Of a DNA stretch of 23,868 nucleotides, positions 549 through 19,837 are shown one piece after another. Each line of letters starts with the position of its first letter. Positions within the stretch are counted from its first letter, which is position 1. Both the position numbers and the translations under genes were made by a program. Location of the stretch: the IMG/VR virus record IMGVR_UViG_3300022929_000205, positions 1 to 23,868 of that record; one strand, 5' to 3'. The DNA is from a virus. The notes below the pieces were generated by a model, which was not told the origin of the DNA, searched no databases, and was given only the letters and a program-made list of their open reading frames with translations.

Positions 549-1651
549 TATACTACCGTCATATTTCCGTTAATTGTAAGTGTGACTCCAGTAGCTACAC
601 TGATTGGTCCGCTTGCTATTGCATTTTCACTAGAGTCAATTGTTGTGTTAGTACTTATCGTATTACTGTGCTTGCGAATTGGAGATGTTTTTATCTCTGC
701 ATCGCTAGAGCCTTGAAGTATACCTGCACTTGTAAGTTTTAAGTCTTGAGAATAACTAGACCCCATTCTGAATATTAAACTACCTGAACCATTCATATTG
801 ATGTAACCAGTATTACCATAACCTTGAATTTGTAATTCACCAGATCCTTGAGCTAAATTTGTACTAACTATTGCACCATCAGTGTGTAACTTACTAGTAG
901 GATTCGTTGTACCAATTCCAACATTTCCATTTGATCCTAAGATAGTCATTGCAATATCATAGTTACTATTGTGTCTAAATTTTAAGTTATTGTTTGTTCC
1001 TCTAGTATCGATATAGCTATCACCATCACGGTTGAAACGTAAACTGTTAGCTCCGAAGAATGCTTCATATCCAATAGCTGACTTATCACCAGATTTGACT
1101 TCTTGAGCACTAGATGCGTATAAATCTCCGCCACTTTTAAAACGCCATTTCTCAGATCCACCCATCATAATTCTTAAATCGTTATTATAAACGTCTATGT
1201 GGTTTATGCCAATATCTGTATAGTATGTGCCATTTTGAGCAACTCTTAACTCAACCGCAGATCCATTGCCATCAACATGTAGCTTGGTATTAGGACTATC
1301 AGTGCCGATGCCAACATATCCACTGTCTAAAATAGTCATTTTTTGGGCACCATCAACAGTAAATGTTAGGTAACTGTTAGCCGCAGCGTTGAGAGGATCG
1401 CTTTCAATTGCAATACTGTTGGTTGGCGAACTCCAGTTGCGTATTCTACCTGATACTTCGCCTCCCACATCTAGTACATTAAAACTAGCATTGTTGCCTG
1501 TGTTAAAATCACCTGAACTGGCATCCAACATGGTAACTCCGCCCATTTGCAAATTACCATTTACAATGTTTAGGTGTCCACTAGAGTCAATGCTGATGTC
1601 AGGTCCAGCATTATCAATGTGTGCTATATGTTCTAGTTTGAGTGTACTCAT
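548..1651 (-). CDS. Tail fibre protein, 367 aa, VGIG-repeat type
   Basis: A phage structural protein expected in the tail fibre or an adhesin attached to it. The N-terminus reads MSTLKLEHIAHIDNAGPDIS, a typical short attachment leader. Two scaffold repeats are visible: YVGIGTDSPNTKLHV near residue 113 and NVGIGTTNPTSKLHT near residue 243. The C-terminus (NAIASGPISVATGVTLTING) resembles that of the 99-aa protein at 3578-3877, a small closing module seen at the end of many marine phage fibre proteins. No Peptidase_S74 chaperone domain is visible. It is preceded by its own late promoter and a 9-bp leader hairpin that overlaps the ATG. The stop overlaps the next gene by one base (TAATG). The family call is firm; the exact position in the tail is inference. 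Confidence 0.8.
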   Translation of the reverse strand: MSTLKLEHIAHIDNAGPDISIDSSGHLNIVNGNLQMGGVTMLDASSGDFNTGNNASFNVLDVGGEVSGRIRNWSSPTNSIAIESDPLNAAANSYLTFTVDGAQKMTILDSGYVGIGTDSPNTKLHVDGNGSAVELRVAQNGTYYTDIGINHIDVYNNDLRIMMGGSEKWRFKSGGDLYASSAQEVKSGDKSAIGYEAFFGANSLRFNRDGDSYIDTRGTNNNLKFRHNSNYDIAMTILGSNGNVGIGTTNPTSKLHTDGAIVSTNLAQGSGELQIQGYGNTGYINMNGSGSLIFRMGSSYSQDLKLTSAGILQGSSDAEIKTSPIRKHSNTISTNTTIDSSENAIASGPISVATGVTLTINGNMTVV

Positions 1652-1677
1652 ATGTGTATCCTAGTTGTTACACATAT
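1650..1677 (-). promoter_or_regulatory. Leader hairpin with RBS in loop and start codon in stem
   Basis: On the minus strand ATATGTGTA (1677-1669) is a perfect complement of TACACATAT (1658-1650). The ten-base loop ACAACTAGGA holds the AGGA ribosome-binding site, and the right arm includes the first two bases of the ATG at 1651. The left arm overlaps the late promoter core. RNA starting at that promoter would begin at about the end of the left arm and could not form the stem, whereas read-through RNA could. Confidence 0.65.
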
Positions 1678-1682
1678 TTATT
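1675..1682 (-). promoter_or_regulatory. T4-type late promoter core, AATAAATA
   Basis: The minus strand reads AATAAATA followed by TGTGTAACAACTAGGA, matching the NATAAATA core of T4-like late promoters (sigma-like gp55 family). It sits directly after the TAG stop of the 86-aa gene and ends 23 bases before the ATG at 1651. The first base is A, where the other four copies in this window have C. Confidence 0.8.
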
Positions 1683-1943
1683 CTATTCATCGTCTGGTGT
1701 CTGAGCTGCTATGTATGCGGCATAAGCATCTTTGATTTCTTGTGTATGTACTGCATTACAAATTGCCTGTACTTCTGTACTTTCACTTGTAATATCATCA
1801 CCTGGTGATACTACATGTCGATGAAAACTTCTACTGATCTCTTCACCATCACGTTTAATGACCGTGGCTGTTCTCACCTGAACATGTTTGTAATCACCTA
1901 CGATCTCGATTTTATCTTCTACTGTTTCTTCTGTTAGTGCCAT
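1683..1943 (-). CDS. Conserved small phage protein, 86 aa, fibre-locus partner
   Basis: A short acidic soluble protein beginning MALTEETVEDKIEIVGDYKH, with a central stretch VQVRTATVIKRDGEEISRSF. From memory this resembles a conserved uncharacterised protein of marine T4-like phages encoded in the tail fibre region; I know no assigned biochemical function. It has no membrane segment or signal peptide. A strong Shine-Dalgarno (AAGGAGAT) lies seven bases before the ATG, the best in the window, which fits its being separated by about 50 bases from the 527-aa fibre gene. It is the last gene of the long transcript starting near 8965. The next late promoter begins immediately after its TAG stop. 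Confidence 0.75.
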   Translation of the reverse strand: MALTEETVEDKIEIVGDYKHVQVRTATVIKRDGEEISRSFHRHVVSPGDDITSESTEVQAICNAVHTQEIKDAYAAYIAAQTPDDE

Positions 1944-1973
1944 CGTTTATCTCCTTTATGGCTTGGACTGTCC

Positions 1974-1995
1974 AACTCTATAATCCAATAGAGTT
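1974..1995 (-). other. Intergenic 8-bp stem-loop
   Basis: AACTCTAT and ATAGAGTT form a perfect 8-bp inverted repeat with a six-base loop. The first bases of its minus-strand form overlap the TAA stop of the 527-aa gene. A shorter near-palindrome, GGACTGTCC, follows at 1965-1973. No run of T follows on the minus strand, so this is not a standard intrinsic terminator. It could be an RNA processing or stability element, or a weak attenuator. Confidence 0.5.
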
Positions 1996-3577
1996 ATTGA
2001 TTTGTTTTATACGTAAGACTTATACTACCTTCGAAATTACTGCTTATATCTCCAGGCTGTAATGCTCTGTAAGAATGGGTACTACCATCACCTTGCCCGT
2101 AAAACTTTCCTGTATTTGTACCTGGGATTAGTCCTATATGAAAACTGTAATCCCATTCATAACTTGAACTAGATGCACCTCTTAAAAGTATTGGATAGGT
2201 AAAACTTGCGTTACCACCGGTTGGTGCAGTTGTATCTACATTAAAAGGTAGACCTGCTAATTCTATATCTCCACTTGGAGAAGAGCGTCCTTGCGTTTCA
2301 TATCTAAGATGAATAGTGACCAACCTACCCACTTTAGTATAGAATCCCTTTGCATATCCAGTTCTTACAGTAAAAGATCCACTACCAGCACAAGGCAAGC
2401 TATAAGTCCACTCGCCCTCCTCATAGTCGTCCAACTTATTAGACCGTGCATCAAACTGAATGCCGCCTGTTAGATATAAATCACGCCAGCCACCATTGGA
2501 TCTTCCTAAGTCAATAGTATCATTTTTTGATAGCCAAGGACCAAAATGATATGTGCCGACATTAGAGTATTGAACACCATCAGTATCTCCATTGAGTTTT
2601 TGAGAAATATATTGAGTTCCCGCATTTGTAGATATTGCTAATTCACTACCGGATCCCATTCCGATGGTTCCTATATTACTGTTATTTTCGTTTATACTAA
2701 TAACAGCTCTGTTTGAACCCGAAGAGCTAGTTCTATTTAAATATAATGAAATTCCATTTACTTTAGAAGCAAGAACTTCACCCACAGGATTAAACTGTAC
2801 ACCTGTACCATTGCCCCAACTTGCTGTTGGAGCGGTAATACCGATTCCTACCATTTTATTAGATGCTAATCTCATCACTTCATTGTGAGACCCACTACCA
2901 TAAGTTAAAAATCTTATGTTACTACTAGAATCATTTTCAGAACTAATATCTAATAGGCTTTGTCCTGCTGTTGTATTACTTCCAATATATCCAATTTTAT
3001 TAGTATCTTTCCATAATCCCAGTATCTCACCATCAGATGTAAGACGGTTGAGATTGAACGCTCCCCCGCCATCTCTTGTTACAGCAAGAGAACCAGCAAT
3101 AGTGTATTGAAGTCCTACTTGTGCTAAGTTAGCAGTTTTGTTTGCTCCAAAGAAGATATTGCCACTAGTATCAATTACTACATGTGAGTTGCCAACACCG
3201 CCAGCTGAGAATCTAAGCTCGTTGTATGAGCCTACTTCAAAATGTGTGGTTCTAGAATCTAATCTGGCTAAACTAGTGGTACCATCGTTTTCGTAAAATT
3301 TTAACTGACCAATATCGTCTGCACTTCTGCCTCTGATGTTTATTGCTTCACCACCACTAGGCGACACAATATCTAATGTAGTATTTGGACTAGCAGTGCC
3401 AACACCAACTCTATTGTTTGCCGCATCAACATACAGTGTATTAGTATCCATTGCAATATTACCATTGATATCTGCTTGTGGTATTTTATCCAAATTCAAC
3501 GTGGTTGTACCTGCATTGTCAGGTACAGCGATATCTACATATCCACTAACATCACCGTATATTCTAACTTTACTCAT
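1994..3577 (-). CDS. Tail fibre protein, 527 aa, with YEEGEW-type C-terminal domain
   Basis: The N-terminal leader MSKVRIYGDVSGYVDIAVPD, continuing into a TTLNLDKIPQ stretch, resembles phage fibre attachment segments. Scaffold repeats appear at about residues 56-70 (RVGVGTASPNTTLDI) and near 241 (MVGIGITAP). From about residue 380 the sequence switches to LDDYEEGEWT, then a GFYTKVGRLVTIHL stretch and GLPFNV. This combination is a recurrent C-terminal beta domain of phage tail proteins and probably the surface-contacting part. The ATG directly abuts the TAA stop of the preceding 99-aa gene with no intervening base and only a weak ribosome-binding site, so translation is probably coupled. No late promoter of its own is visible. 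No S74 autoprotease is present. Confidence 0.8.
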   Translation of the reverse strand: MSKVRIYGDVSGYVDIAVPDNAGTTTLNLDKIPQADINGNIAMDTNTLYVDAANNRVGVGTASPNTTLDIVSPSGGEAINIRGRSADDIGQLKFYENDGTTSLARLDSRTTHFEVGSYNELRFSAGGVGNSHVVIDTSGNIFFGANKTANLAQVGLQYTIAGSLAVTRDGGGAFNLNRLTSDGEILGLWKDTNKIGYIGSNTTAGQSLLDISSENDSSSNIRFLTYGSGSHNEVMRLASNKMVGIGITAPTASWGNGTGVQFNPVGEVLASKVNGISLYLNRTSSSGSNRAVISINENNSNIGTIGMGSGSELAISTNAGTQYISQKLNGDTDGVQYSNVGTYHFGPWLSKNDTIDLGRSNGGWRDLYLTGGIQFDARSNKLDDYEEGEWTYSLPCAGSGSFTVRTGYAKGFYTKVGRLVTIHLRYETQGRSSPSGDIELAGLPFNVDTTAPTGGNASFTYPILLRGASSSSYEWDYSFHIGLIPGTNTGKFYGQGDGSTHSYRALQPGDISSNFEGSISLTYKTNQ

Positions 3578-3877
3578 TTATAGTATTACCCATCTTTGTC
3601 CGCTTGGTATAGTAACTGTTGCACCGCTTGCTAGTGTTACAGGTCCTACCGTCATTGCATTTCTATTAGTACTTAGTGTATAATTATTGTTCACAGTATT
3701 GTCAGTTTCTACAAAAGCTAGATCACCGTTGCCTCCAGTAGCACCTCCATCAAAGTGTTGTGTGCCATGCACCAAGTGTCCGTTACTGATGTCAATATCA
3801 CCTGTAACTGTAATATTGCCAGTGGTGTGTGCATCAACACCCAGTGGCATTTCTCTCATTTCTTTTGCTCTACTCAT
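3578..3877 (-). CDS. Mini-fibre protein, 99 aa
   Basis: The start at 3877 is chosen over an in-frame ATG six codons upstream (3895). It gives an ATGA overlap with the previous stop and places GGAG eight bases ahead. Its opening, MSRAKEMREMPLG, also lines up with the fibre N-termini MSKALELSQL, MGKAKEIAEL and MSNARKLGNM. After about 50 residues the protein goes directly into NAMTVGPVTLASGATVTIPS, matching the C-terminal module of the 367-aa fibre. It therefore looks like a fibre N-terminus joined to a fibre C-terminus with the long shaft missing. It may be a short tail spike or collar piece, or the remnant of an internal deletion; the intact frame and coupling favour a working gene. Confidence 0.7.
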   Translation of the reverse strand: MSRAKEMREMPLGVDAHTTGNITVTGDIDISNGHLVHGTQHFDGGATGGNGDLAFVETDNTVNNNYTLSTNRNAMTVGPVTLASGATVTIPSGQRWVIL

Positions 3878-4287
3878 TGTGGTTTCTCCGGCCAAATTAC
3901 GTCATCTAAACTTGTATAAGTTTCAGTAATATCTCTAAGTGCTTGTCTATAAGTCTGCCAACTACTAGGAACTGCTACTCCAGATTCTAAACTTTTAGTT
4001 ACTATCCAGTCTGTTACAGCTAACTTTTTATCTCTAGCTTCACGCAATAACGAAATTGGATGAGCTGCGACAAGTTCATCATATTTTGCTTTTACTTGTG
4101 TCCATGTTACGCTCCATTCGCTGGAATCTGTTTCAAGAATAGCACTACCATGTTCATCTTCTCCAGTAACTGGAGCATACATTTGTTCAAATTCCGCTTG
4201 AGTTGTTGGATCTCCGCTACAAACAAAATTTGTTTGCCCCAGTGCTTTAAGCGCATCTGTAATTGTTATTTCAATCGGTAATGTCAT
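3874..4287 (-). CDS. Tail assembly chaperone-like protein (Phage_tail_APC type), 137 aa
   Basis: The C-terminal half has the family pattern: a basic LREARDKKLAVTDW segment, then SSWQTYRQALRDIT, then VIWPEKPQ at the end. Proteins of this type (Pfam Phage_tail_APC, by memory) are small soluble factors thought to help tail or fibre proteins fold or assemble. The N-terminal half (MTLPIEITITDALKALGQTN) is unlike the other two copies in the window and may decide which fibre is bound. It follows the 1547-aa fibre by nine bases, with a TAAGGA ribosome-binding site overlapping that gene's stop, and it overlaps the 99-aa gene in an ATGA. The last 30 or so residues are nearly identical to the 13055-13426 protein, indicating duplication. 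Assignment to the 1547-aa fibre as client is inferred from order. Confidence 0.78.
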   Translation of the reverse strand: MTLPIEITITDALKALGQTNFVCSGDPTTQAEFEQMYAPVTGEDEHGSAILETDSSEWSVTWTQVKAKYDELVAAHPISLLREARDKKLAVTDWIVTKSLESGVAVPSSWQTYRQALRDITETYTSLDDVIWPEKPQ

Positions 4288-4296
4288 ATTTGTTCC

Positions 4297-7200
4297 TTAC
4301 CCATGTAATCTACTAACTTCTCTAACATGTATATACCCATATTTGTTGTAAGACGTTTGATACATGTTCACATATGCTGAATCTGAACCACTCCAACACT
4401 TCATTTCAAAATACATCTTAACTACACCAACACCCGTATTTGATAAAAAGTTTTCAGTATTCCAAGTGTAGTTTAAGATATCAGCTGTATCTCCGCCATA
4501 TCCACCAGCACCCCAACCATGCGCTGGTCCATCGTTCAATTGGTCAATTGCATATGTATTAGATCCTGGAGGCGCAATTCTTAATCTTATGCCTATGCCA
4601 CTACCCGCACCAGGCATATAAAACGGAAAATGTACACTAACAATCAAATCACTGTCCGCATCTATTTTTGTAAATTCTAGTACATTATTACTACCACTTA
4701 ATCTATCGCCTGTACTACTAGTTCCAGCGATATTTACTGTAACCCAGCTTGTGGTGGTTAGATCTGTTCTTGCACCTGATCCCCAGCCTGTGCAGTAGCT
4801 TTGTTCATTGTTTATAGGCAATCCATATTTTGTTACAATTTTTTTACTAGCAGTGTAAGTATCATAAGCATCGTCTGCGTTGCCATTACCTGCCCACCAT
4901 TCTAATCCATGTTCGCCACTCATAGACATTAGAGACATGCCACCGGATGATTGTGCTTTCCAGGTGCCGTCTTCATAGTGTCCGCCACTGCTTAAATATG
5001 TTCTACCTCCACTCCATGGCAACACCCCAAATGCATTATTGTATGATTTGCTACGTGCAGTTATTGCACCACTATTAGTGGATACCGACTGAACACTTAG
5101 ACCGGCGCCAGTATTTCCTGCGCCAATGCTGGGTGTGTTTATAGTGAGTTGGCCTCTATCTGTAAATTTAAAATTTTCTGAAAATGTAATATTTGTTCCT
5201 GCATTATCACTTGTAACAGTGCTTTCAAAACTCATGTAATCATCATGAAAAATTAGTCTGTTGGCTTTGCCTGTGGCAATGCGTTTGTATGCACTATCGT
5301 CATAATACCAGTTATGCCCTATCTGCATTGTACCATCAGTGGCTGCAATTACACCCTTGGTGTCCCACTGACTTTTGGCTCCAAACACTGTGCCCCATGC
5401 ACTAGGCGAAACTTCGTTAGTACTAATATTACCAAATCCTATTGCTCCATTTTGATCAGACACATTGATTCTGGTTAGTCCGTTTTGTCCGATCCAAATT
5501 GGTTTATTTTCATAGTTCCACACATAACCTCTTCCTAGACCACTGCCTGTGCCAATAACACCTAACCACATGCCTTGACCATTGCCCATTCCTGTATTAT
5601 CATTTTGTAATGCTATTGCAGGATAAGCGGCATTGTTATCGTTGTTACTGATAGTTAATACATTGTTGCTTCCAATTTCACTAGCTTCACCACCTATTAT
5701 CATTTTACCAGTGGAGTCAATGCCTGCTCTATGAACATCAGATGTAGCAAAATTAAGATTGCCAGCTTCTCTGTTCCAAATATATCCATGAAGGCTAGTT
5801 GTAATAATTTCAAATCCACTGGTTGTTTCATGCCCAGTGACGCTATCAGTAAGTTTTAAACTAGATCCTGTGCCAGTACTTTTAACATGTAGATTAGCAC
5901 CATAGTTTCCAGCTTGAGCCGCGCTTGCACCTTGACCTACACACACGTCACCATCTGAAAATACAACCACACGGTGGTCATTGTTGTTATCATCATATGC
6001 AAGATAAAGTTTTCCATCGCCTGCGCCAATTTGGAATGCTCTACTTGTACCTGTGTTATCCCTGTCGCCTCGCAAACTTAAAACACCGTATGCATCTCCA
6101 GCAGTTCCATCAATTGTTAAGAACTTACTTCCAGCCTGCCATTCACTATTACTTAAATTTGTATCTGTACCAATACCAACGTGACCGTTGATATCGATAC
6201 GCATGCGTGTTGCGTGATTGGTACCAAACAACATAGCATTATTAGCATGATCATATTGTACAAAACCTTCATATTGATTGCTTGTTGTTGTACCATCTGC
6301 AAATAAAATTGAACCTGTGCCAGTATTGCCAGTATAAATTGTCATACCTTGATCGCCAGCACCACTACCGAGAACAAATAAATCAGCACCGCCAACTTGA
6401 TTAAAAGAAGAATTTGCAGATGTTTTAAGACCTAATCGACCATTACTATCGATTGTAGCTCTAGTAGTTCCATCTACCATAAATTTAATAGTAGAATTGG
6501 CTATTGCATTGTCCGGATCACTTTCAAATCTCAACGATGTGTTGTCCAGTGTTATTTCACCATTGTTATTGGTGTCAGAATCTTCAAATCTTATCTCAGG
6601 GTTTTGATAATTTAGTACTGGTCTGCCAGTCATTGTGCCGCCTGCTAGGGGCAGATATGCGGCCACCGCTGTACTAATCTGACTGTTGGTTTCAGCCTGT
6701 GTGTATGTTTGTGATTGAGTATAGTAAGCACTGTTGGTCAAAAGTTCGTAAATCTGTATGTCTGCAACATCTCCACTTTGTAAGTTACTGATAAATGCAA
6801 CACTACTACCTGTGGTAGCAACATAATCATAGCTACTACCTTCTACTTGTTTAACACCATTGACATATACTTCAACATTTTCTGTTCCGTTGGTAACATA
6901 GTTAAGTACATGTCCAGCTGTGCCTGTTCCTGTGCCAGCGCCTGTTGCAGTAAAAGTAACACCAACAGTGTTTGCACTTGCACCAATAGCTGTAAAATCT
7001 GTAGTTCCTACACTGATAATTTCATATTGATATCCGGTAATAAAACTACCTGCTGTAACCACAATATCATCTTTACCTGTGAGTGTGTTAGTGCTACTGG
7101 TCACAGTGTAGGTGTATTTTCTGAAAGTAGTATTTGCATCAGTAGCACTACCACCTCCACCTCCGCCTCCAGCAGGCACAGCGTCAACAAATGCACTACC

Positions 7201-8940
7201 AGTATAAACTTTTAGTTTTTGATTGAGGCTGTCAAAGAAGAAACTACCTTGTGCAGGTGTTCCGCTGTAGCTGGTTGCATACTGTACTGTGGCATTATTT
7301 ACAGTACCACGCAAACTACCTCCAGTTAATGTGCTTGCTTTTACCCTAGCGTCTGTGTAATATAAATTTGTACTTCCTTCGCTTAGGTTGTCTGTGTCTT
7401 TTGAACTTAGATCTAAATTCGAACCTGTTTGCGCATTAACTCTTGCATCAGCTCTAGCATCTGTGTAGTATAAATTAGTGCCTTCTGTTAAGTTAGCAGT
7501 TGTTTTAGTACCCAGTCTTGTATCAAAATCTGTGTTAAAACTTGTGTAAACAGTATCACTGTCTGCTACCCAAGCATAGTCACTGCCATTCCAACTTAGC
7601 ACATACCCCGCTGTTGGGTTTGACTGATTTAGATGTGCATCCACTCTTGCGTTTGTGTAGTATAAATTTGTGCCTTCGCTGAGATCGCTTGTTGTTTTAG
7701 AACTTAGGTCTAAATTCGCACCAGCTTGTAGTGCAATACGTGCGTCTGCTCTTGCGTTTGTAAAGTATAAGTTTGTACTTCCTTCACTTAGCGCATCTGT
7801 GTCTGCGGCAGCAATACGTGCATCTGCCCTTGCATCTGTGTAGTATAAGTTAGTGCCTTCACTTAAATCGCTGGTTGATTTGGTTGCGATCCAAGTGTTT
7901 GCTGTTGATGTAAAGTCTGAGGTTGCTAATTTAGTAGCAATACTATTTGTTATAGTTGTACTAAAGTTAGCGTCATCGCCTAAGGCTGCTGCTAATTCGT
8001 TAAGTGTGTCCAGTGTATTTGGCGCACTATCAACCAATGCATCTATTTTAAGTTGCGCTCTAGCATCTGCTCTTGCATCTGTGTAGTAAAGGTTTGTACT
8101 GCCTTCACTAAGTGAATCTGTGTCAGCTGCCGCAATGCGAGCATCTGCTCTAGCATCTGTGAAGTATAAATTTGTTTGCTCTGGAATGTCTGCTGTACTA
8201 ACTTGATTAGTACCAGTGCCAAAGTCTATGTGTGTATCATTAATACTATCAGCTGCAATACTTGTTAAGTAGCCTGCTGATCCATGATCTCCCCAACCAT
8301 AAGCAGTATCCCACTGTCCAACTTTGGTATCAGTGATTAGATTAGTACCCATGTCAATGTCATTGCCATTGGCATCTAGTGTACCACCAAGTTGTGGAGT
8401 TGTATCACTTACTAGATCTGTGTTAATAGAACTGGTGCTTGCGGCTGTGATTCTACCTTGTGCATCAACAGTAATTACTGGTATTGCAGTGGATCCGCCA
8501 TAACTACCAGCAGTTACCGCTGTGTTGTCCAGTGCTATACTTACTTGATTGTTTGTTACTGTACTTGTAAGAGCTGTACCACCTGCAAAGGTAAGTGTAT
8601 CAGTTCCAAGTGTGATAGTGTCTGTTCCACTATCGCCTGCAATGTCTGTGGTGCTAACAATGTTTACAGCTTGTGTGCTTACTGCGGTTACCAAGCCTTT
8701 AGCGTTCACTGTTACAACTGGTATTGCACTACCGCTACCAAAACTTCCAACATTGCTGTTGACTGTAGCTAATGTAACTGCACCGTTACTGGCAACTGTA
8801 ATGTCACCACTAAAATCATTGTATGCCAATAGTACATCTGTACCAACAGTGATATTGGCTTGTCCAAACGAAAGTGTGTCTGTGCCTTCGTTGTATGTTA
8901 CATCATTGGCTAATTGTGAAAGTTCGAGTGCCTTGCTCAT
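4297..8940 (-). CDS. Giant tail fibre protein, 1547 aa
   Basis: This is the largest gene of the window. The N-terminus MSKALELSQLANDV is shared in style with other fibres here. Residues about 40-235 repeat segments such as IPVVTVNAKGLVTAVST and IPVITVDAQGRITAAST. Residues about 250-535 hold seven NLYYTDAR-type repeats and one DSAPNTLDTLNELAAALGDD module. A run of seven glycines (591-597) looks like a hinge. Next comes a YTVTSSTNTLTGKDD...VEVYVNGVKQ module, apparently interrupted by an inserted VGTTDFTAIGASANTVGVTF block. A long shaft with loose VGIG repeats (HVGIGTDTN, AIGFGN) follows, and a unique C-terminal domain of about 160 residues ends in REVSRLHG. It has its own late promoter and leader hairpin. 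It probably forms a long trimeric fibre; the trimer and the receptor role are inferred from family behaviour. Confidence 0.85.
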   Translation of the reverse strand: MSKALELSQLANDVTYNEGTDTLSFGQANITVGTDVLLAYNDFSGDITVASNGAVTLATVNSNVGSFGSGSAIPVVTVNAKGLVTAVSTQAVNIVSTTDIAGDSGTDTITLGTDTLTFAGGTALTSTVTNNQVSIALDNTAVTAGSYGGSTAIPVITVDAQGRITAASTSSINTDLVSDTTPQLGGTLDANGNDIDMGTNLITDTKVGQWDTAYGWGDHGSAGYLTSIAADSINDTHIDFGTGTNQVSTADIPEQTNLYFTDARADARIAAADTDSLSEGSTNLYYTDARADARAQLKIDALVDSAPNTLDTLNELAAALGDDANFSTTITNSIATKLATSDFTSTANTWIATKSTSDLSEGTNLYYTDARADARIAAADTDALSEGSTNLYFTNARADARIALQAGANLDLSSKTTSDLSEGTNLYYTNARVDAHLNQSNPTAGYVLSWNGSDYAWVADSDTVYTSFNTDFDTRLGTKTTANLTEGTNLYYTDARADARVNAQTGSNLDLSSKDTDNLSEGSTNLYYTDARVKASTLTGGSLRGTVNNATVQYATSYSGTPAQGSFFFDSLNQKLKVYTGSAFVDAVPAGGGGGGGSATDANTTFRKYTYTVTSSTNTLTGKDDIVVTAGSFITGYQYEIISVGTTDFTAIGASANTVGVTFTATGAGTGTGTAGHVLNYVTNGTENVEVYVNGVKQVEGSSYDYVATTGSSVAFISNLQSGDVADIQIYELLTNSAYYTQSQTYTQAETNSQISTAVAAYLPLAGGTMTGRPVLNYQNPEIRFEDSDTNNNGEITLDNTSLRFESDPDNAIANSTIKFMVDGTTRATIDSNGRLGLKTSANSSFNQVGGADLFVLGSGAGDQGMTIYTGNTGTGSILFADGTTTSNQYEGFVQYDHANNAMLFGTNHATRMRIDINGHVGIGTDTNLSNSEWQAGSKFLTIDGTAGDAYGVLSLRGDRDNTGTSRAFQIGAGDGKLYLAYDDNNNDHRVVVFSDGDVCVGQGASAAQAGNYGANLHVKSTGTGSSLKLTDSVTGHETTSGFEIITTSLHGYIWNREAGNLNFATSDVHRAGIDSTGKMIIGGEASEIGSNNVLTISNNDNNAAYPAIALQNDNTGMGNGQGMWLGVIGTGSGLGRGYVWNYENKPIWIGQNGLTRINVSDQNGAIGFGNISTNEVSPSAWGTVFGAKSQWDTKGVIAATDGTMQIGHNWYYDDSAYKRIATGKANRLIFHDDYMSFESTVTSDNAGTNITFSENFKFTDRGQLTINTPSIGAGNTGAGLSVQSVSTNSGAITARSKSYNNAFGVLPWSGGRTYLSSGGHYEDGTWKAQSSGGMSLMSMSGEHGLEWWAGNGNADDAYDTYTASKKIVTKYGLPINNEQSYCTGWGSGARTDLTTTSWVTVNIAGTSSTGDRLSGSNNVLEFTKIDADSDLIVSVHFPFYMPGAGSGIGIRLRIAPPGSNTYAIDQLNDGPAHGWGAGGYGGDTADILNYTWNTENFLSNTGVGVVKMYFEMKCWSGSDSAYVNMYQTSYNKYGYIHVREVSRLHG
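7335..8185 (-). repeat. Seven NLYYTDAR-type coding repeats
   Basis: Within the 1547-aa fibre the unit (L/S)-x-EG-(S)-TNLY-(Y/F)-T-(D/N)-AR-(A/V)-DA occurs seven times, spaced irregularly and separated by short linkers such as IAAADTD and LQAGANLDLSSK. Single copies occur in the 868-aa, 905-aa and 1294-aa fibres. The repeat is a known texture of marine phage fibre proteins and probably forms shaft strands. Copies differ at many third codon positions. Confidence 0.85.
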
Positions 8941-8967
8941 ATGTGTATCCTAGTCTGCTACACATAT
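8939..8967 (-). promoter_or_regulatory. Leader hairpin with RBS in loop and start codon in stem
   Basis: On the minus strand ATATGTGTA (8967-8959) pairs perfectly with TACACATAT (8947-8939) around an 11-base loop, GCAGACTAGGA, that exposes AGGA. The right arm includes the AT of the ATG at 8940. The left arm overlaps the late promoter. The loop differs in length and sequence from the copy at 1650-1677 while both stems are kept. Confidence 0.65.
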
Positions 8968-8972
8968 TTATG
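8965..8972 (-). promoter_or_regulatory. T4-type late promoter core, CATAAATA
   Basis: The minus strand reads TAAACATAAATATGTGTAGC, a match to the NATAAATA late promoter core, 24 bases before the ATG of the 1547-aa fibre. It likely drives the longest cassette, 1683-8940, because no other promoter is visible inside that stretch. The 47-aa gene upstream stops at 8988, so the promoter lies in a clear gap. Confidence 0.82.
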
Positions 8973-8987
8973 TTTAGTTTAATGGTT

Positions 8988-9131
8988 TTAATCAGAAAGA
9001 GGATCCCATTGATCGTTGTTAAAAACAAACCAATAACCAAACTGCTCAACTGTATCTCCTTCTGATACTTCAGGAAAGAACATTTGTCGAACTTTATCTA
9101 ACGCTTGTTCTGCTGTGTATTCTTCTTCCAT
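8988..9131 (-). CDS. Small acidic partner protein of the 1294-aa fibre, 47 aa
   Basis: This short open frame begins MEEEYTAEQALDKVRQMFFP and ends VFNNDQWDPLSD. It is acidic, with a helix-like first half and an aromatic second half (FGYWFVF). The ATG overlaps the TAA stop of the 1294-aa fibre by one base (TAATG). The bases encoding the fibre's last residues, GGAGTTTAT, supply GGAG as its ribosome-binding site. The same junction occurs at 13426 between another fibre and its chaperone, which strongly supports translation. It occupies the slot where other cassettes have a chaperone, so it may be a minimal fibre partner. I do not recognise a family and it lacks the Phage_tail_APC motifs. Confidence 0.72.
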   Translation of the reverse strand: MEEEYTAEQALDKVRQMFFPEVSEGDTVEQFGYWFVFNNDQWDPLSD

Positions 9132-12100
9132 TAATAAACTCCACTTGTATTGGTTGATCTAGTGTATGCTGAAACCTCAACATCTCTCCATGTGTATTCA
9201 TAATTTTGCATATAGTCAATAGAAACACCTGCATATGTGTTAACCCCAAGATCAAGAACAATAACAACTTTGTTGTCTGTTGATCTATAAGGCGCCCAAC
9301 TGCTACTGACAACTGTACTATGACCATTATTTGTATAGGCTGTGTTGTAATAACTTCCGCTCCAGTTATGAAATCCCAACATTGAGTCGATGTTATGCGC
9401 TGAATAAGTATAACCTCTTATGTGAAACATAGACATAGTAGGTTGAGGATTACTACCAGTTTGATTGACCAAATTTGTTTTTATGTGTAGGTACCTAGAT
9501 GAACTCTGACTACCATAGTTGAACCAATTGATCACAGTACGTCCAACTCTCAGGCCTCTTTTTCCTGTAGTAGCATTATAATTAGCACCTACACTTAACC
9601 TTTCTTTTGTTGTGTGTATATAACCAGCACTATCAATCTCTAAATCCACATTACTACTACTTGGAGCTCCGTGTCCCATAATAAATTTATTAGCTCCAAC
9701 ACTCCAAGTATTATCTGTTGCAACCATGAAGAATTCAGCGCCACCAGAAGTGTTATTATCAAACATTAAAGTAGCGTTGTACGAAGCAGTTGTTCCTCCT
9801 AATGTGAGCTTTGTATTGGTATATGGAGTAACACCCATACCAATAGCTCCACCAGGATGGATTTGCAAACGTTCATTCATATTGCTATCGTTTGGAGTAG
9901 CATTACCGTCAAGGGCATCAGGAGTAAGGAAAGATATAGAACCATAAGAAGAGAATATCTGGAATTTTTCTGTGCTGCGATGATCGTATACTATTCCAGC
10001 ACGAGTGTTGGTCTGATAATTCCATAACCATCCAAAAGCACTATCTGCACCTGTTATGCCATCTAACCAGTTACCATCCAATCTTGAGAATGTAAGTAGT
10101 TGTGATCCAGCAGTATCATAGCTGGTTTGAAATCCGACTACGTTTTCATTAATACCAGAAGAAGGTTCATAGGTATTTGACCCTTTATTAACATGTAATT
10201 TAAAATTAGGATCAGTAACACCAATGCCAACGTTGCCCCCGTATGGATTTAAACTGATTTTTTTTGCAGTGGATAAATCTGATGTTAATGATTGTATACT
10301 TACATAGTCTGTCGCACCACTAAATCTCAATTGTGCTCCACTTGCTCTTGAATTAATAACAAGAGGTGTATGACTAAATTCGGATAGGTTAGCAGCAGTC
10401 CAAGCCTGTGTAGTATTAATGAATACCGTTGCTCCACCGGCTGCATTTGCAACTTCTAATTTAGCAGTTGGGTCTCGAGTACCTATGCCAACATCTCCAT
10501 CAGTTTGAACAGCTATACGATAGGCATTGGTGTTATCATTATATAACTCCCAACCTTTTGATGTTGCTCCTATTTGCCAACTAGAACTAGCCCCACTTTG
10601 TTGGAGCCACGGATTACCGTTTGATTGAATCTTTGCTACAACACCACTAGGAGCTCCATTGTGATTTATATGAAGAGGATTTCCTGGGTTAGTGCCGGCA
10701 TTTCCAATACCAACAAAACCATTAGGTAAAATTGTTAGGCGTTCAACCAAGTTACCAGCTGTACCATCAGGGCTTGTAAATAATCCTAATCTACCAGCAC
10801 CGCTAGATATGTCGGTGTTTACTGTTCTAATTGCACTAGGAACAGCAGAGTTATATTGAAACCTTAGACCCACTGTATGACCAGTCGCACTAATACCTCT
10901 GTTTCTGACAGAGATAGAATCGCTTGTAGTGGCAGCAGCATTAGTATCAACAGTTAGTAGGTTAGGTGGACTATCTGTACCGATACCAACATTGCCGCCG
11001 GTGAGGTATGATGTTCCGTCAGAGAATAACTGAACTGTTCTTGTCCCGTCACCTTTTTGTATATTAATAAACCCTTGAACAGTCCCTGCTCCAATTTGCA
11101 CCTGGCCTTGAGCACCGCCAGTAGTATCTTTTACAAACAAATCAGCTACGTCGATATTGAGATTACCAGTCATAGTACCACCTGCCAATGACAGTTTAGT
11201 TGCTATGCTGTTTGTCACTGTTGTGCTGAAGTTAGCATCATCACCTAGTGCAGCAGCTAATTCGTTTAACGTATCTAATGTGCTTGGGGCTGAGTCTGTA
11301 ATACTAGCAACGATGTTTGTTGCAGTATCAAAATCATTACTACTTAAATAACTTGCTACTCGTGCGTCTGTATAATATAAATTTGTTCCTTCAGGTAATT
11401 CACCTGTGTTGGCTGCACCAGCCAACTGCCATGCACTACCATCCCAAATATACAATTTATCTGTATCTGTTGCGAATGCTTGATCACCTGCATTATTATC
11501 TGTTAGTGGTAAGTAAGTACTGTCTGCATACACATTAACTTTAGCAACAACTGCACTACCATCTTCTACAACAAGTTCTGCTGTACCTGCCACTTCTCTG
11601 ATCTTGTTTTCAAAGCTGGGCGTGTTTTCAACATATGTTGCCAAATCTTGAGGAACAAATTTATTAACGCTGGAATCATATACCAAACACATCTGATTAA
11701 CAAGACTTGGAATAGGTCTTAGTTCAACTGGTGTTTTGTGTCCTTCTTGTGTGTGTTGTGCATACACCACATAGTTGCCGTTAATGTTTGTTTCCACAGC
11801 AAGGTCTTTAACTGTAATAGCACCTCTCATACTACTGTGATTGCCGCATTGATAATACAGTGTATCTGGTGCATTGGCTGGTACTACAAAAGTAAGTGTT
11901 CCACTATCTGTTCTTGATCCAGTAACTCCACTGGTATATTCACCAAAATATGTTCCTGCACTAAAGTTAGTGCCGTTGTCAGTTGTTAGATAAAAGGGAT
12001 GACCTGTTGCACTAATATTAAATGTATATGTGCCGCCTCGACGAAGTGGTCCAATGTTTGGGTTGTTTCCATCACGTGGTCCACTAAAGGTGTACGATCC

Positions 12101-13015
12101 CGAGCCGCTGTTTGTAACTGTATATGTTACGCTAGGAGCAGTTAGGGTAGGAGGTGTAATTGTACTAGGTACACTAATACTTAATCTTTGTACTGTGGTG
12201 TCTGCACCGCCATTTATATCTGGATGACTATCTGTGAATGTTCCCTGATCTGTGACCCAACTGATGTTGTTTTGTGTACCCGCTCCATCGATCCATTTGA
12301 AATGCATAGTATGTGCTTGAGTCATTGACCCATACTGTGTTTTAGCAAAATTATTAACAGTATATGTACCTTGCTTGTACAGTGGCACGTTTAATTCGTT
12401 TGAGTTGGTAATTGCACGTCTGGCGTAAGGCAAACTGCTTGTAAGCCAATTCCAAAGCCACTGTGTGTCTTGTCCAGCAGCTGGAGCTGCCACATCAATT
12501 GTTAATACTTCAGGAGCAATAGCTAGATTAACATCAGGAACATTGTCTTGACTGATAGTTCTAGTGCCTAATTGTATACTATTGCCACTGAGATACAAAT
12601 CTCTAAATCTCTGTGTAGTACTGCCTAAGTCATATGTAATGTTAGTATCTGGAAGTATGTGACCTGCTACATTAACTCCGCCTTGCACTGCAATACCGCC
12701 TTGAAATGTACCACCTGTGCTGGCAGGAACAACGTCTGCAACTTCAAATACATTTACTGCAACTATGCTTAATTCATCATTGACAACTGCGGCATTTGCT
12801 AGTACAATACTAGTACCGTTAGTGGCTGTAAAGTCACTTTCTTCTAATCTAGCACCATTGAAATACACTTCAATGTTACCAGGTGTATAACTTAGTGTAT
12901 TATTATTAGAGTCAGCACCTGTGAAGGTAGTTTGTCCGCCTGTAGCAGTGTAGTTGTATTCGTTTTGAGCGTTTCTGCTGATTACATTATCTGGTCTACT
13001 ACCAATGTATGCCAT
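9131..13015 (-). CDS. Tail fibre protein, 1294 aa, with internal cupredoxin-like domain
   Basis: The N-terminal module (MAYIGSRPDN, then YTATGGQTTFTGADSNN, IEVYFNGARL, about residues 1-100) is a standard marine phage fibre opening. Residues roughly 300-400 form a cupredoxin-like domain: GHPFYL with His339, then YYQCGNHSSMRGAI with Cys390, His393 and Met396. This is the Cys-x-x-His-x-x-Met spacing of amicyanin-type copper sites. One NLYYTDAR repeat (near 545), a DSAPSTLDTLNELAAALGDD module (near 572) and an LAGGTMTGNL motif (near 613) follow. VGIG repeats then run to about 1150, and a unique C-terminal domain ends in SGVY. Copper binding is not shown; a structural beta-sandwich role is equally possible. 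It is preceded by a late promoter and a class-2 hairpin, with AAGGA before the ATG. Confidence 0.85.
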   Translation of the reverse strand: MAYIGSRPDNVISRNAQNEYNYTATGGQTTFTGADSNNNTLSYTPGNIEVYFNGARLEESDFTATNGTSIVLANAAVVNDELSIVAVNVFEVADVVPASTGGTFQGGIAVQGGVNVAGHILPDTNITYDLGSTTQRFRDLYLSGNSIQLGTRTISQDNVPDVNLAIAPEVLTIDVAAPAAGQDTQWLWNWLTSSLPYARRAITNSNELNVPLYKQGTYTVNNFAKTQYGSMTQAHTMHFKWIDGAGTQNNISWVTDQGTFTDSHPDINGGADTTVQRLSISVPSTITPPTLTAPSVTYTVTNSGSGSYTFSGPRDGNNPNIGPLRRGGTYTFNISATGHPFYLTTDNGTNFSAGTYFGEYTSGVTGSRTDSGTLTFVVPANAPDTLYYQCGNHSSMRGAITVKDLAVETNINGNYVVYAQHTQEGHKTPVELRPIPSLVNQMCLVYDSSVNKFVPQDLATYVENTPSFENKIREVAGTAELVVEDGSAVVAKVNVYADSTYLPLTDNNAGDQAFATDTDKLYIWDGSAWQLAGAANTGELPEGTNLYYTDARVASYLSSNDFDTATNIVASITDSAPSTLDTLNELAAALGDDANFSTTVTNSIATKLSLAGGTMTGNLNIDVADLFVKDTTGGAQGQVQIGAGTVQGFINIQKGDGTRTVQLFSDGTSYLTGGNVGIGTDSPPNLLTVDTNAAATTSDSISVRNRGISATGHTVGLRFQYNSAVPSAIRTVNTDISSGAGRLGLFTSPDGTAGNLVERLTILPNGFVGIGNAGTNPGNPLHINHNGAPSGVVAKIQSNGNPWLQQSGASSSWQIGATSKGWELYNDNTNAYRIAVQTDGDVGIGTRDPTAKLEVANAAGGATVFINTTQAWTAANLSEFSHTPLVINSRASGAQLRFSGATDYVSIQSLTSDLSTAKKISLNPYGGNVGIGVTDPNFKLHVNKGSNTYEPSSGINENVVGFQTSYDTAGSQLLTFSRLDGNWLDGITGADSAFGWLWNYQTNTRAGIVYDHRSTEKFQIFSSYGSISFLTPDALDGNATPNDSNMNERLQIHPGGAIGMGVTPYTNTKLTLGGTTASYNATLMFDNNTSGGAEFFMVATDNTWSVGANKFIMGHGAPSSSNVDLEIDSAGYIHTTKERLSVGANYNATTGKRGLRVGRTVINWFNYGSQSSSRYLHIKTNLVNQTGSNPQPTMSMFHIRGYTYSAHNIDSMLGFHNWSGSYYNTAYTNNGHSTVVSSSWAPYRSTDNKVVIVLDLGVNTYAGVSIDYMQNYEYTWRDVEVSAYTRSTNTSGVY

Positions 13016-13026
13016 AAAGATATCCT

Positions 13027-13045
13027 TGCGTAAATGTGTTACACA
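13027..13045 (-). promoter_or_regulatory. Leader hairpin, class 2, upstream of RBS
   Basis: On the minus strand TGTGTAA pairs with TTACGCA around the loop CACAT, with one U-G wobble. The right arm directly abuts the AAGGA ribosome-binding site, so the start codon is not in the stem. The same structure, with a full Watson-Crick stem, precedes the 1102-aa fibre. Confidence 0.5.
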
Positions 13046-13053
13046 TATTTATG
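13046..13053 (-). promoter_or_regulatory. T4-type late promoter core, CATAAATA
   Basis: The minus strand reads TAAACATAAATATGTGTAAC, 30 bases before the ATG at 13015. The leading TAA is the stop codon of the chaperone gene just upstream, so stop and promoter share bases. Sequence and position match the other four promoter copies. Confidence 0.82.
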
Positions 13054-13054
13054 T

Positions 13055-13426
13055 TTATGCAGGTGGTGTTGGCCAAACCACATCGTCTAGACTGGTGTAG
13101 GTTTCTGTAATGTCTCTTAGTGCTTGTCTATAAGCAAGTTGTTGCGATGTAGCTGGAAAGTCTTGTAAACCCCATAAATCTGTTTCTTTAAGTTTCTGAT
13201 CTCGTTCAAATCTAAGTTGATCTAACCCTAAATTTTCTGGAGGAGCAAGATCTTGTATATCGATTTCATCATCGACTAGTGTAATAATTTTACCTTCCGT
13301 AACAAAATCATCTGCTACTTGTTTTACTACACTGTTTTCACCAAGTTGAATAAGACAAGAATCATCATTTGGATTCTCGTGTGTAAAAAATTTCATATTA
13401 TTATTTTCAAAAACAATATAAGCCAT
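13055..13426 (-). CDS. Tail assembly chaperone-like protein (Phage_tail_APC type), 123 aa
   Basis: The C-terminal half shows LRFERDQKLKETDLW, then LAYRQALRDITETYTSLDD and a final VVWPTPPA, the pattern of phage tail assembly chaperones. The N-terminal half (MAYIVFENNNMKFFTHENPN) is different from the other copies and acidic in its middle. Its start overlaps the stop of the 905-aa fibre by one base (TAATG), and GGAG within the fibre's last codons acts as ribosome-binding site, so the two are translated together. The fibre is therefore the likely client. The last 30 residues nearly match the 3874-4287 protein although many third codon positions differ. The stop codon TAA forms the first bases of the next late promoter motif. 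Confidence 0.8.
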   Translation of the reverse strand: MAYIVFENNNMKFFTHENPNDDSCLIQLGENSVVKQVADDFVTEGKIITLVDDEIDIQDLAPPENLGLDQLRFERDQKLKETDLWGLQDFPATSQQLAYRQALRDITETYTSLDDVVWPTPPA

Positions 13427-16143
13427 TAATAAACTCCTACTACATTTACTATCCTAGGACTATAGATAATTATATTAGTCAACATGCCTCCTGCATATGT
13501 TCCAGCTGCTTTTACAATATCTACCTCAGTGGCACTGTGTCTACTAAAGCTCCAAGACCCTTGTTGACTACTGGTTTGATTGTGCATATTGGATTCACTC
13601 ATTGTTGAGCTGTTATCTAGCATAAGATAGCTTTCTCTCCATAATCCATATGGGCTACTCCAGTGAGATCCTTGCGCCATTATTCTAAGAATGCCGTTGC
13701 CATGTCCTGATGTTCTTACAACATATGCTTGGTTGCCTATCATGTTCATTGAAAAACTAAATTTATACAGATCAGTATAGCCCACACTGTTGTGAATTTG
13801 ACTTGCGTTTGTACTGTATTGCTTGAAAGTAAATCTACCTTCTGGTGATATGCTTGCTCGTTCTAATATACCAGCATCTTCGTCACTTGTGTCGTTATTA
13901 GTAGCAAAGGCCAGAGCTGATGTTTCATGACCAGGTGTAGATACAACTCTAGGTCCAATCCAAGCATGTACGTTTTCGTCATGTTGCGCACTATGACCAC
14001 CTAAGTGATTGAAGCCTATGCCTCCGCCATAGGCTCCCACAGCACGAGTTCCGTTTGAAGAATTCCATAATGTTTCAACACGCAGAGCTACTTGTTGTTT
14101 ACTTAGTGTTGTGCTCCAACCACTATAAGCACTGTCTAATACATGTAAACCAGCAATTGGACTTGTTGACTGATTATTATTACCACCTATAATAGCTGCT
14201 CCGTTAACGTGTAGTGGTGCATCTGGAGAACTCATACCAATACCAACTCGCCCATCGCCTTGTACAACAAAGTCTGTACCGGAATTATCATATGCATGAA
14301 TAAATCTTGTACCTGATCCACTATAACTACCAGCATCGAGTTCTATCATTCCCGCATTTGAGTTAGTACCGTTTGTATAATTAGCTCCAGCAATTTTTAA
14401 TCCACTACCTTTATGACTACCATAACCTCTGTTTATCAAAACAACATGTGCATCACCACTACCTGGAGGTGAAACGTTAAGTGTTGTTTGCGAAACATCA
14501 CTGTTAGCAATATCTAAGGTTGCAGATGGATCAGATTTATTGATACCAACATTACCTGCACCTTCGATAACCATTCTTTCTGTATTATTAGTTCCAAAAG
14601 ATATAGCTTTGGTTAAATTTTGCGTAGTTCCAATTTCCATAGTATTGTTACCAAATGATTCAACTCTACCTATATACTGATTTCCGCTCCACCCAACACC
14701 AGAACTCGTATACATATACATATTTTCGCCATGTGTGCCGGTGTTACGAGTAACTTGTATGCCTTCGATACCAACACCATTACTAGTCACAAACCCACTA
14801 TTGTTAGAAGTAACATGTAGTTTACTACGGGGAGCGTCATGATTTATACCAACGTTGCCGTTAGCTCCAGATATTAACATTTGAGGACTTGTTGGTAATA
14901 AGTTAGCAGCATTGGCTGAATTTACATAAAATCTCAAATCTGTATTGTTACTACCAAAAACTCCTCTTGTACCAATAAAGGCTTGAACATATTCGTTTCC
15001 GCTGTTGTCTCTGTGTTTGTAGAAACTTAATCCTGGGCCGTTAGAATCTGAATTGAATACATTACCATCTGTTAATTTTAAGTTACCTTGTGGCCAGTAT
15101 CTATCTGCAGGGACACTTGCTGAAGCGTCATCCATATTTTCATCAGAAAGTCGATCTATTATAAGTCCGTTACGATATCCATACTCTAGATCATTTGAAT
15201 TATCAATATAGACTTGAAATTTTTGTCCAGGATTCGTTGTACCAATACCAACGTTGCCTCCGGGTTTAATTGTTACATATTGAGTAGGAGTTCCGCCGCC
15301 ATCACCTGCGTGTAAAGACAAGTGTGTATCACTTCTTAGTTGACCACCACCGGTGGAACTACTATCTTGATTTCTAAAATAAATAGATCTAGATGTACTA
15401 CCCCCACTATCAAGACGTATGTCCCCTCTAACATCTAATTTAGAACCTGGACTTGTCGTACCAATACCAACTCCTGTATCAGTAATACGAACTCTTTCGT
15501 CAGACCCAGTAGCAAATCTAATGTCTGTGGCTCTGATACCAAAAGCAGTGTTAGCATTTCCAGCAGTGTTTACAGCTTGGAATCCAGCAACACTGCCAAT
15601 TTCTCCGATATTTCCTGCAAATAAAATTCTTTTATCGGTTCCAACTCTTACGTCTAAACCGTTATCGCCAGCAGCAACAATTAATGCACCAGTCATTGAA
15701 CCACCTGCTAGAGGTAGTTTGGCAGCAATTGAGTTTGTAACTGTTGTACTGAAGTTAGCATCGTCGCCCAGTGCTGCGGCTAATTCATTTAATGTATCTA
15801 GCGTATTAGGTGCGCTGTCTACTAGTGCATCTATCTTCAACTGGGCTCTTGCATCTGCTCTAGCATTTGTAAAATATAAATTAGTACTGCCTTCAGTTAG
15901 CGCATCTGTATTGTGATTACTAATACTACTTGTAGTTCCAGTAACATTGCCTGTTAACGGTCCCACAAATGCTGTAGCTGTAGCTGTTCCTGTTATGTCT
16001 AGTGTTGTTGTAGGTGTTGCACTACCAATTCCTACACGATTATTTGTACTGTCCACTACTAGTGTATTGTCAGTCGGGTCAACATTAAAGTCTCCGTCTA
16101 ACCCATGTGTTGTCATGTTTCCTAATTTACGTGCGTTACTCAT
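13426..16143 (-). CDS. Tail fibre protein, 905 aa, VGIG-repeat type
   Basis: The N-terminus MSNARKLGNMTTHGLDGDFN is followed by a first VGIG repeat near residue 37, one NLYFTNARADARA repeat (near 88-100), a DSAPNTLDTLNELAAALGDD module (109-128) and LAGGSMTGAL (near 144-153). The shaft then carries further repeats, including GVGIGTTSPGSKLDV, NVGIGTTNPGQKFQV, NVGINHDAPRSKLHV, NVGINKSDPSATLDI and RVGIGMSSPDAPLHV, at intervals of roughly 70-110 residues. From about residue 785 a unique domain begins (NSVGYTDLYKFSFSM) and ends in VVGVY. No S74 domain is present. A late promoter and a class-1 leader hairpin precede it. The last codons, GGA GTT TAT, also provide the ribosome-binding site of the chaperone gene downstream. 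Receptor binding by the terminal domain is inferred. Confidence 0.85.
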   Translation of the reverse strand: MSNARKLGNMTTHGLDGDFNVDPTDNTLVVDSTNNRVGIGSATPTTTLDITGTATATAFVGPLTGNVTGTTSSISNHNTDALTEGSTNLYFTNARADARAQLKIDALVDSAPNTLDTLNELAAALGDDANFSTTVTNSIAAKLPLAGGSMTGALIVAAGDNGLDVRVGTDKRILFAGNIGEIGSVAGFQAVNTAGNANTAFGIRATDIRFATGSDERVRITDTGVGIGTTSPGSKLDVRGDIRLDSGGSTSRSIYFRNQDSSSTGGGQLRSDTHLSLHAGDGGGTPTQYVTIKPGGNVGIGTTNPGQKFQVYIDNSNDLEYGYRNGLIIDRLSDENMDDASASVPADRYWPQGNLKLTDGNVFNSDSNGPGLSFYKHRDNSGNEYVQAFIGTRGVFGSNNTDLRFYVNSANAANLLPTSPQMLISGANGNVGINHDAPRSKLHVTSNNSGFVTSNGVGIEGIQVTRNTGTHGENMYMYTSSGVGWSGNQYIGRVESFGNNTMEIGTTQNLTKAISFGTNNTERMVIEGAGNVGINKSDPSATLDIANSDVSQTTLNVSPPGSGDAHVVLINRGYGSHKGSGLKIAGANYTNGTNSNAGMIELDAGSYSGSGTRFIHAYDNSGTDFVVQGDGRVGIGMSSPDAPLHVNGAAIIGGNNNQSTSPIAGLHVLDSAYSGWSTTLSKQQVALRVETLWNSSNGTRAVGAYGGGIGFNHLGGHSAQHDENVHAWIGPRVVSTPGHETSALAFATNNDTSDEDAGILERASISPEGRFTFKQYSTNASQIHNSVGYTDLYKFSFSMNMIGNQAYVVRTSGHGNGILRIMAQGSHWSSPYGLWRESYLMLDNSSTMSESNMHNQTSSQQGSWSFSRHSATEVDIVKAAGTYAGGMLTNIIIYSPRIVNVVGVY

Positions 16144-16169
16144 ATGTGCGTCCTAGTTGTTACACATAT
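16142..16169 (-). promoter_or_regulatory. Leader hairpin with RBS in loop and start codon in stem (variant)
   Basis: On the minus strand ATATGTGT pairs with GCACATAT, seven Watson-Crick pairs plus one U-G, around a loop that includes ACAACTAGGA. The ninth position is a mismatch, unlike the copies at 1650 and 8939. The right arm again covers the AT of the ATG at 16143. Keeping a wobble pair where the sequence changed mildly supports selection on RNA pairing. Confidence 0.55.
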
Positions 16170-16174
16170 TTATG
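16167..16174 (-). promoter_or_regulatory. T4-type late promoter core, CATAAATA
   Basis: The minus strand reads TAAACATAAATATGTGTAAC, 23 bases before the ATG at 16143. The gap between this promoter and the stop of the 86-aa gene (16175-16214) holds two weak short inverted repeats, GAGG-AAG-CCTC and TTAGA...TCTAA. I do not call a terminator there. Confidence 0.82.
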
Positions 16175-19810: not shown

Positions 19811-19829
19811 TGTGTAAATGTGTTACACA
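19811..19829 (-). promoter_or_regulatory. Leader hairpin, class 2, upstream of RBS
   Basis: On the minus strand TGTGTAA pairs perfectly with TTACACA around the loop CACAT. The right arm touches the AAGGA ribosome-binding site of the GTG-started fibre gene. It shares stem, loop and placement with the copy at 13027-13045. Confidence 0.55.
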
Positions 19830-19837
19830 TATTTATG
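19830..19837 (-). promoter_or_regulatory. T4-type late promoter core, CATAAATA
   Basis: The minus strand reads TAAACATAAATATGTGTAAC, 31 bases before the GTG at 19798. The leading TAA is the stop codon of the 123-aa chaperone gene, the same stop-promoter sharing as at 13055. Confidence 0.82.

Follow-up and report, generated by a model that had tools for sequence, protein, structure and literature searches.

Inhibitory helices at the translation start region are known from the e, soc, 49 and I-TevI genes of phage T4, where lysozyme synthesis is lowered 100-fold in the long RNA (PMC3014915), and similar hairpins occur at I-TevII, I-TevIII, segB and mobE (PMC2988022). The DNA considered here, IMG/VR virus record IMGVR_UViG_3300022929_000205 (positions 1 to 23,868; 'the window' denotes all 23,868 nucleotides), is a minus-strand tail-fibre array in which long fibre-like proteins are interspersed with small genes, several of which match tail-fibre assembly or Phage_tail_APC families. 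At three of its fibre genes the end of a late promoter belongs to one arm of a hairpin whose other arm overlaps the start codon, and our contention, which we think likely to be correct, is that this hairpin is a translational lock on RNA not begun at the gene's own late promoter. What can be read directly from the nucleotides is both arms, their covariation in relatives, the link between arm and promoter, and a predicted closure of the start codon.

Five late promoters sharing an identical ATAAATATGTGTA extension occur in the window, each with the core NATAAATA, which is the cyanomyovirus form of the late promoter; the CATAAATA or AATAAATA sequence starts 31-39 nt 5' of the start codon, so that a T4-type late promoter lies directly upstream of each gene. 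At three of the five (class A) the promoter extension pairs with bases overlapping the start codon. The initial annotation had described these three as the hairpin-bearing promoters, and its inverted repeats are confirmed: arms and loops can be read off the minus strand, the left arm contains the final ATA of NATAAATA in every copy, and the third copy does keep its eight pairs through one U-G wobble. The same late promoter is found five times, however, and the other two copies have a different inverted repeat (class B). The design is economical: the (T)AT of the start codon already finds its complement in the fixed ATA, so about six more bases would suffice for a lock.

Within the window alone, only the position and recurrence of these repeats stand out. 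A count of perfect inverted repeats (arms of 8 or more, spacers of 5-15) gives 10, against 6.1 (maximum 16) in shuffles, and the fold z-scores of the three class A copies are weak (-2.1, -0.9 and -0.1); the window is thus not proof by itself, and significance rests on relatives. Related arrays were gathered by exact-pattern scans of viral contigs and one protein-guided scan, and the larger contigs were examined whole or nearly whole. Portal proteins that are 88-91% identical place contigs G012, G021, G024 and G028 in one close group. No isolate proved to be close, named phages reaching at most 55% identity to the G021 portal, and such hairpins are absent from the 40 kb examined of Pelagibacter phage HTVC008M, an isolate whose fibre domains are related.

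The initial annotation suggested comparing the leaders of related phages for compensatory changes, and such changes are present. Nearly every class A leader among the closest relatives of the window has the form TGTGTA ... CACATATG, and in this clade the promoter extension TGTGTA pairs with the right arm TACACATATG; G021, G022, G023, G024 and L250 instead combine a TGTATA extension with TATACATATG as right arm, a compensatory change from G-C to A-U. The switch occurs within the same gene families (MSTLK, MSKAL, MSNAR, LNFP, SKN and NKL), most cleanly in the MAINFP genes, with TGTGTAGCAGACTAGGATACACATATG in L075 versus TGTATAACAGACTAGGATATACATATG in G024. U-G pairs are found at two positions (TATACGTATG, TGTACATATG and the third copy of the window). 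A left G pairs with either type of right arm, while a left A with the old right arm costs about 3 kcal/mol, and so a G-U intermediate would offer an easy evolutionary path. Two other families have stems replaced at several bases. Among the QIxxRA fibre genes, those of G021 and G023 bear TGTATA/TATACAT, that of G015 bears ATACATATAACT/AGGTTATATGTAT (12 pairs, -12.3 kcal/mol, z -3.8), and that of G016 forms a bulged stem from ATATATAAC and GTTATTATAT. Among the NLDH genes, G012 shows ATAGTAGT/ACTACTAT where G028 shows ATATATGT/ACATATAT, a difference of three adjacent double changes; a comparable stem is absent from those of G021 and G024. Among 17 distinct arm types, two-sided changes affect 4 of 9 pairs, with 13 such cells versus 4.3 in shuffles (0/500 as many), and covariation reaches 0.289, against no more than 0.163 when the structure is slid. 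One pair covaries in the restricted TGTNTA set, with G-C, A-U and U-A types. Both pair counts used arms connected through an artificial GAAA linker, with the register fixed to the AUG; the rows were chosen by hand, and a few leaders of the TGTNTA set that are weak or shifted do not appear in the 17-type set.

The right arm is also tied to the promoter that it pairs with. In the clade contigs we compared 45 deduplicated TGTNTA leaders with 38 other late leaders and 235 non-late genes. The mean pairing energy between a TGTNTA leader and its own promoter arm is -6.3 kcal/mol, against -2.1 when shuffled, and other late leaders have on average no excess over shuffles; when left arms were swapped among genes, none of 20000 swaps was equally good. 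A right arm scoring -6 or better against a TGTGTA probe is present in 69% of the TGTNTA leaders, 0/38 other late leaders and 2/235 non-late genes, the last figure ruling out a general leader feature. A hand count across seven gene families, which includes some shifted or partial arms, shows the arm in 32 of the 35 leaders that have a TGTNTA promoter and no arm in 7 of the 8 that have none (Fisher p 2.8e-5, relatedness ignored). The table of 15/0 versus 1/16 was built from printed sequences and not from the pattern-based motif tally. The sequence TGTGTAACA also occurs, with no right arm, at further late genes of T4-like type (MAVVQIS, MANRIP and others), which indicates that the left-arm sequence is by itself an acceptable promoter extension.

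In proposing how the hairpin would operate, we take the 5' arm to consist of the last ATA of NATAAATA and the next six bases, and the 3' arm to run through the AU of the start codon, with AGGA in the loop. RNA reading through from the upstream fibre cassette would hold both arms and its AUG would be closed, while RNA begun about six bases past the promoter would lack the 5' arm and be open. The start site follows from the T4 late promoter spacing, in which the first box base is at -13 (PMC2988020); this would put the left arm at about -8 to +1, such that transcripts from the gene's own promoter would lose it. Read-through is plausible because no terminator-like site was found between cassettes on the minus strand of the window. 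That read-through RNA would be translated less is an extrapolation from T4 e, soc, 49 and I-TevI. Predicted folding agrees with the closed and open states that the initial annotation envisaged: for the three window copies the start AU has a probability of 0.05 of being unpaired in long RNA, compared with 0.55-0.80 in own-start RNA; averaged over the 45 TGTNTA leaders the two values are 0.20 and 0.48, against 0.52 and 0.59 at other late genes.

Several observations weigh against this proposal. The stems are rich in A and U and of modest stability (-6.6 to -8.6 kcal/mol), and in some relatives the own-start RNA is likewise predicted to be closed. At two of the five window promoters the hairpin is of the other kind, and for one of these genes (VPYIG) the prediction leaves the start codon unaffected. 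The G-C/A-U switch may represent few evolutionary events, since leaders within one phage resemble each other. The arm is missing despite a TGTNTA promoter from the VLDG genes of L013 and L037 and the NKL gene of G024, and from MPYLGN fibre genes that retain the promoter; the VLDG gene of G023 has the promoter but lacks the full arm, the MPYIG gene of G021 is likewise a partial exception, and the VLDG gene of G022 keeps the right arm without the promoter. The MPYIG gene of G022 is an exception in appearance only, its promoter core CATAAAT being able to pair with ATTTATG. The free loss of the arm beside a retained promoter, which the initial annotation had named as the contrary outcome, is therefore confined to a minority.

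A further difficulty is that the upstream stop codon typically lies about 6 nt before the left arm, so that a terminating ribosome might melt the hairpin. This proximity (5-6 nt at three of the five window promoters) is the main attraction of translational coupling, in which the start codon would stay closed unless the ribosome finishing the upstream gene opened the hairpin, and downstream translation would follow upstream translation. Yet the distance is inconstant, being 45 nt at one class A copy of the window and, if an intervening 47-residue frame is disregarded, 163 nt at another; the stop-to-AUG gap of about 30 nt is long for coupling, and the absence of the arm from promoterless homologs is left unexplained. 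We regard coupling as unlikely, although it is the least unlikely of the alternatives. A hairpin in read-through RNA might instead mark a cleavage site separating cassettes, as an element of RNA processing or stability. Such an element would be equally specific to read-through RNA and would suit the class B hairpins, which lie 5' of AGGA without covering the start, but cleavage has no need of the class A stems being anchored on the AUG, and we recognised no known nuclease signature; this is rather more doubtful still.

The dyad overlaps the promoter, and covariation between arms is also expected of a palindromic site, as would be the case if a dimeric regulator bound the inverted repeat as a double-stranded DNA operator. 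The spacer, however, is 10 to 12 in class A and 5 in class B, the recurrent U-G pairs are harmless in RNA and mismatched in DNA, unrelated arm sequences occupy the same place, and the right arm is anchored to the AUG, all of which make an operator very improbable. Shared ancestry, whereby the right arm would be a ribosome-leader sequence copied with fibre cassettes and only accidentally complementary, could account for the likeness of leaders inside one phage and for the arm without a promoter in the VLDG gene of G022. We disfavour it, and give it just as little credence, in view of the compensatory changes, the replaced stems, and an arm that almost no other genes carry and that most promoterless homologs lack. 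An intrinsic terminator is also disfavoured, there being no stem followed by a T run on the minus strand at the hairpin sites, and an Rfam search of the window returned zero family matches.

If the hairpins are locks, their use is probably to make the output of each fibre gene depend on that gene's own promoter, insulating cassettes from one another, and not timing; this is the likelier use because the upstream RNA is itself late. That the timing trick of T4 has become an array-wide insulator, each fibre gene being translated only from its own promoter while all RNAs belong to the same late phase, is a more tentative proposal, on which we come down slightly on the side of doubt. Were it true, fibre levels would be independent of position in the array, cassettes could be gained, lost and reshuffled as self-contained units of promoter plus lock, and promoterless fibre genes would remain open to read-through. 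The hairpins themselves offer a testable account of how fibre output could be set cassette by cassette, and they show a well-known regulatory device of T4, to all appearances selected for in uncultivated marine T4-like phages, used repeatedly in one tail-fibre array and not on single lysis or endonuclease genes.

Features of the window, and of three related contigs where named (positions on the respective contig)
Feature	Position	Strand	Remarks
Late promoter AATAAATA	1675..1682	-	fibre gene 548-1651
Copy 1 left arm ATATGTGTA	1669..1677	-	about -8 to +1 by T4 spacing
Copy 1 loop ACAACTAGGA	1659..1668	-	Shine-Dalgarno-like AGGA at 1659..1662
Copy 1 right arm TACACATAT	1650..1658	-	takes in AU of start codon 1651-1649
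Late promoter CATAAATA	8965..8972	-	fibre gene 4297-8940
Copy 2 left arm ATATGTGTA	8959..8967	-	loop GCAGACTAGGA
Copy 2 right arm TACACATAT	8939..8947	-	takes in AU of start codon 8940-8938
Late promoter CATAAATA	16167..16174	-	fibre gene 13426-16143
Copy 3 left arm ATATGTGT	16162..16169	-	8 pairs with right arm, one U-G
Copy 3 right arm GCACATAT	16142..16149	-	takes in AU of start codon 16143-16141
Fourth late promoter CATAAATA	13046..13053	-	fibre gene 9131-13015
Class B hairpin TGTGTAA-CACAT-TTACGCA	13027..13045	-	just 5' of AGGA, fibre gene 9131-13015
Fifth late promoter CATAAATA	19830..19837	-	fibre gene 16490-19798, GTG start
Class B hairpin TGTGTAA-CACAT-TTACACA	19811..19829	-	just 5' of AGGA, gene 16490-19798; start codon uncovered
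Fibre-like gene MSKVRIYGDVS...	1994..3577	-	no late promoter, no right arm; internal contrast
Fibre-like gene MGKAKEIAELG...	20220..22826	-	no late promoter, no right arm; internal contrast
Head-to-head late promoters, L180	13616-13645
Head-to-head late promoters, L234	4106-4135
Head-to-head late promoters, L239	11023-11054

At the class B gene 9131-13015 the promoter CATAAA can additionally pair with TTTATG at 13018-13013. The class B dyad is kept in relatives with compensatory changes, ATGTG-TAA-CACAT becoming ATGTA-TAA-TACAT in G012 and G016, and takes the form TGTATA-A-TATACA in G023. The stop codon of the preceding small gene adjoins the late promoter at 19837, 13053 and 1682, and GTTAAACATAAATA recurs at many cassettes; the 47-residue open frame (MEEEYTAEQALDKVRQMFFPEVSEG...) lies on the minus strand between 9131 and 8972 and separates two fibre cassettes. 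A repeated block, LVDSAPNTLDTLNELAAALGDDANFSTTVTNSIATKL or near variants, is common to the fibre proteins encoded at 4297-8940, 9131-13015, 13426-16143, 16490-19798 and 20220-22826, and suggests cassette shuffling. In three relatives a pair of late genes is separated by divergent late promoters whose sequences overlap head to head (TATAAATA...TATTTATA).

Judged by their sequence, the hairpins of this array share the features of the device at T4 e, soc, 49 and I-TevI: a late promoter directly upstream, pairing kept in relatives, and a helix predicted to pair the AUG in RNA started upstream. We found no literature report of such hairpins in fibre arrays, many subscription papers lying outside the search. 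The closest counterparts are soc, which also has a late promoter just upstream, the AUG in the stem and the Shine-Dalgarno sequence in the loop (PMC3014915), but is a single gene whose left arm begins just past TATAAATA; and e, in which the late promoter lies inside the 5' strand of the helix that closes the start, a strand missing from late RNA (PMC3014915). Unlike the window copies, e also pairs its Shine-Dalgarno sequence, guards against early RNA and has a stronger stem. The initial annotation had invoked the logic of e; this holds insofar as e and 49, folded in the same way, pass from closed to more open as the window copies do, but not as regards the upstream RNA, which in the fibre array is also late. 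Gene 49, I-TevI, I-TevII, I-TevIII, segB and mobE of Aeh1 employ the same promoter-in-hairpin logic (PMC2988022), although the majority are homing endonucleases whose RNA is early or middle, with a sequestered ribosome binding site and no array. For class B the nearest parallel is seg43 of Aeromonas phage 25, where a hairpin lies directly 5' of the ribosome site and leaves it uncovered (PMC2988022), although seg43 is a homing endonuclease. The window departs from the T4 device in two respects: the hairpin recurs from one fibre gene to another, and the RNA coming from upstream belongs to the late phase.

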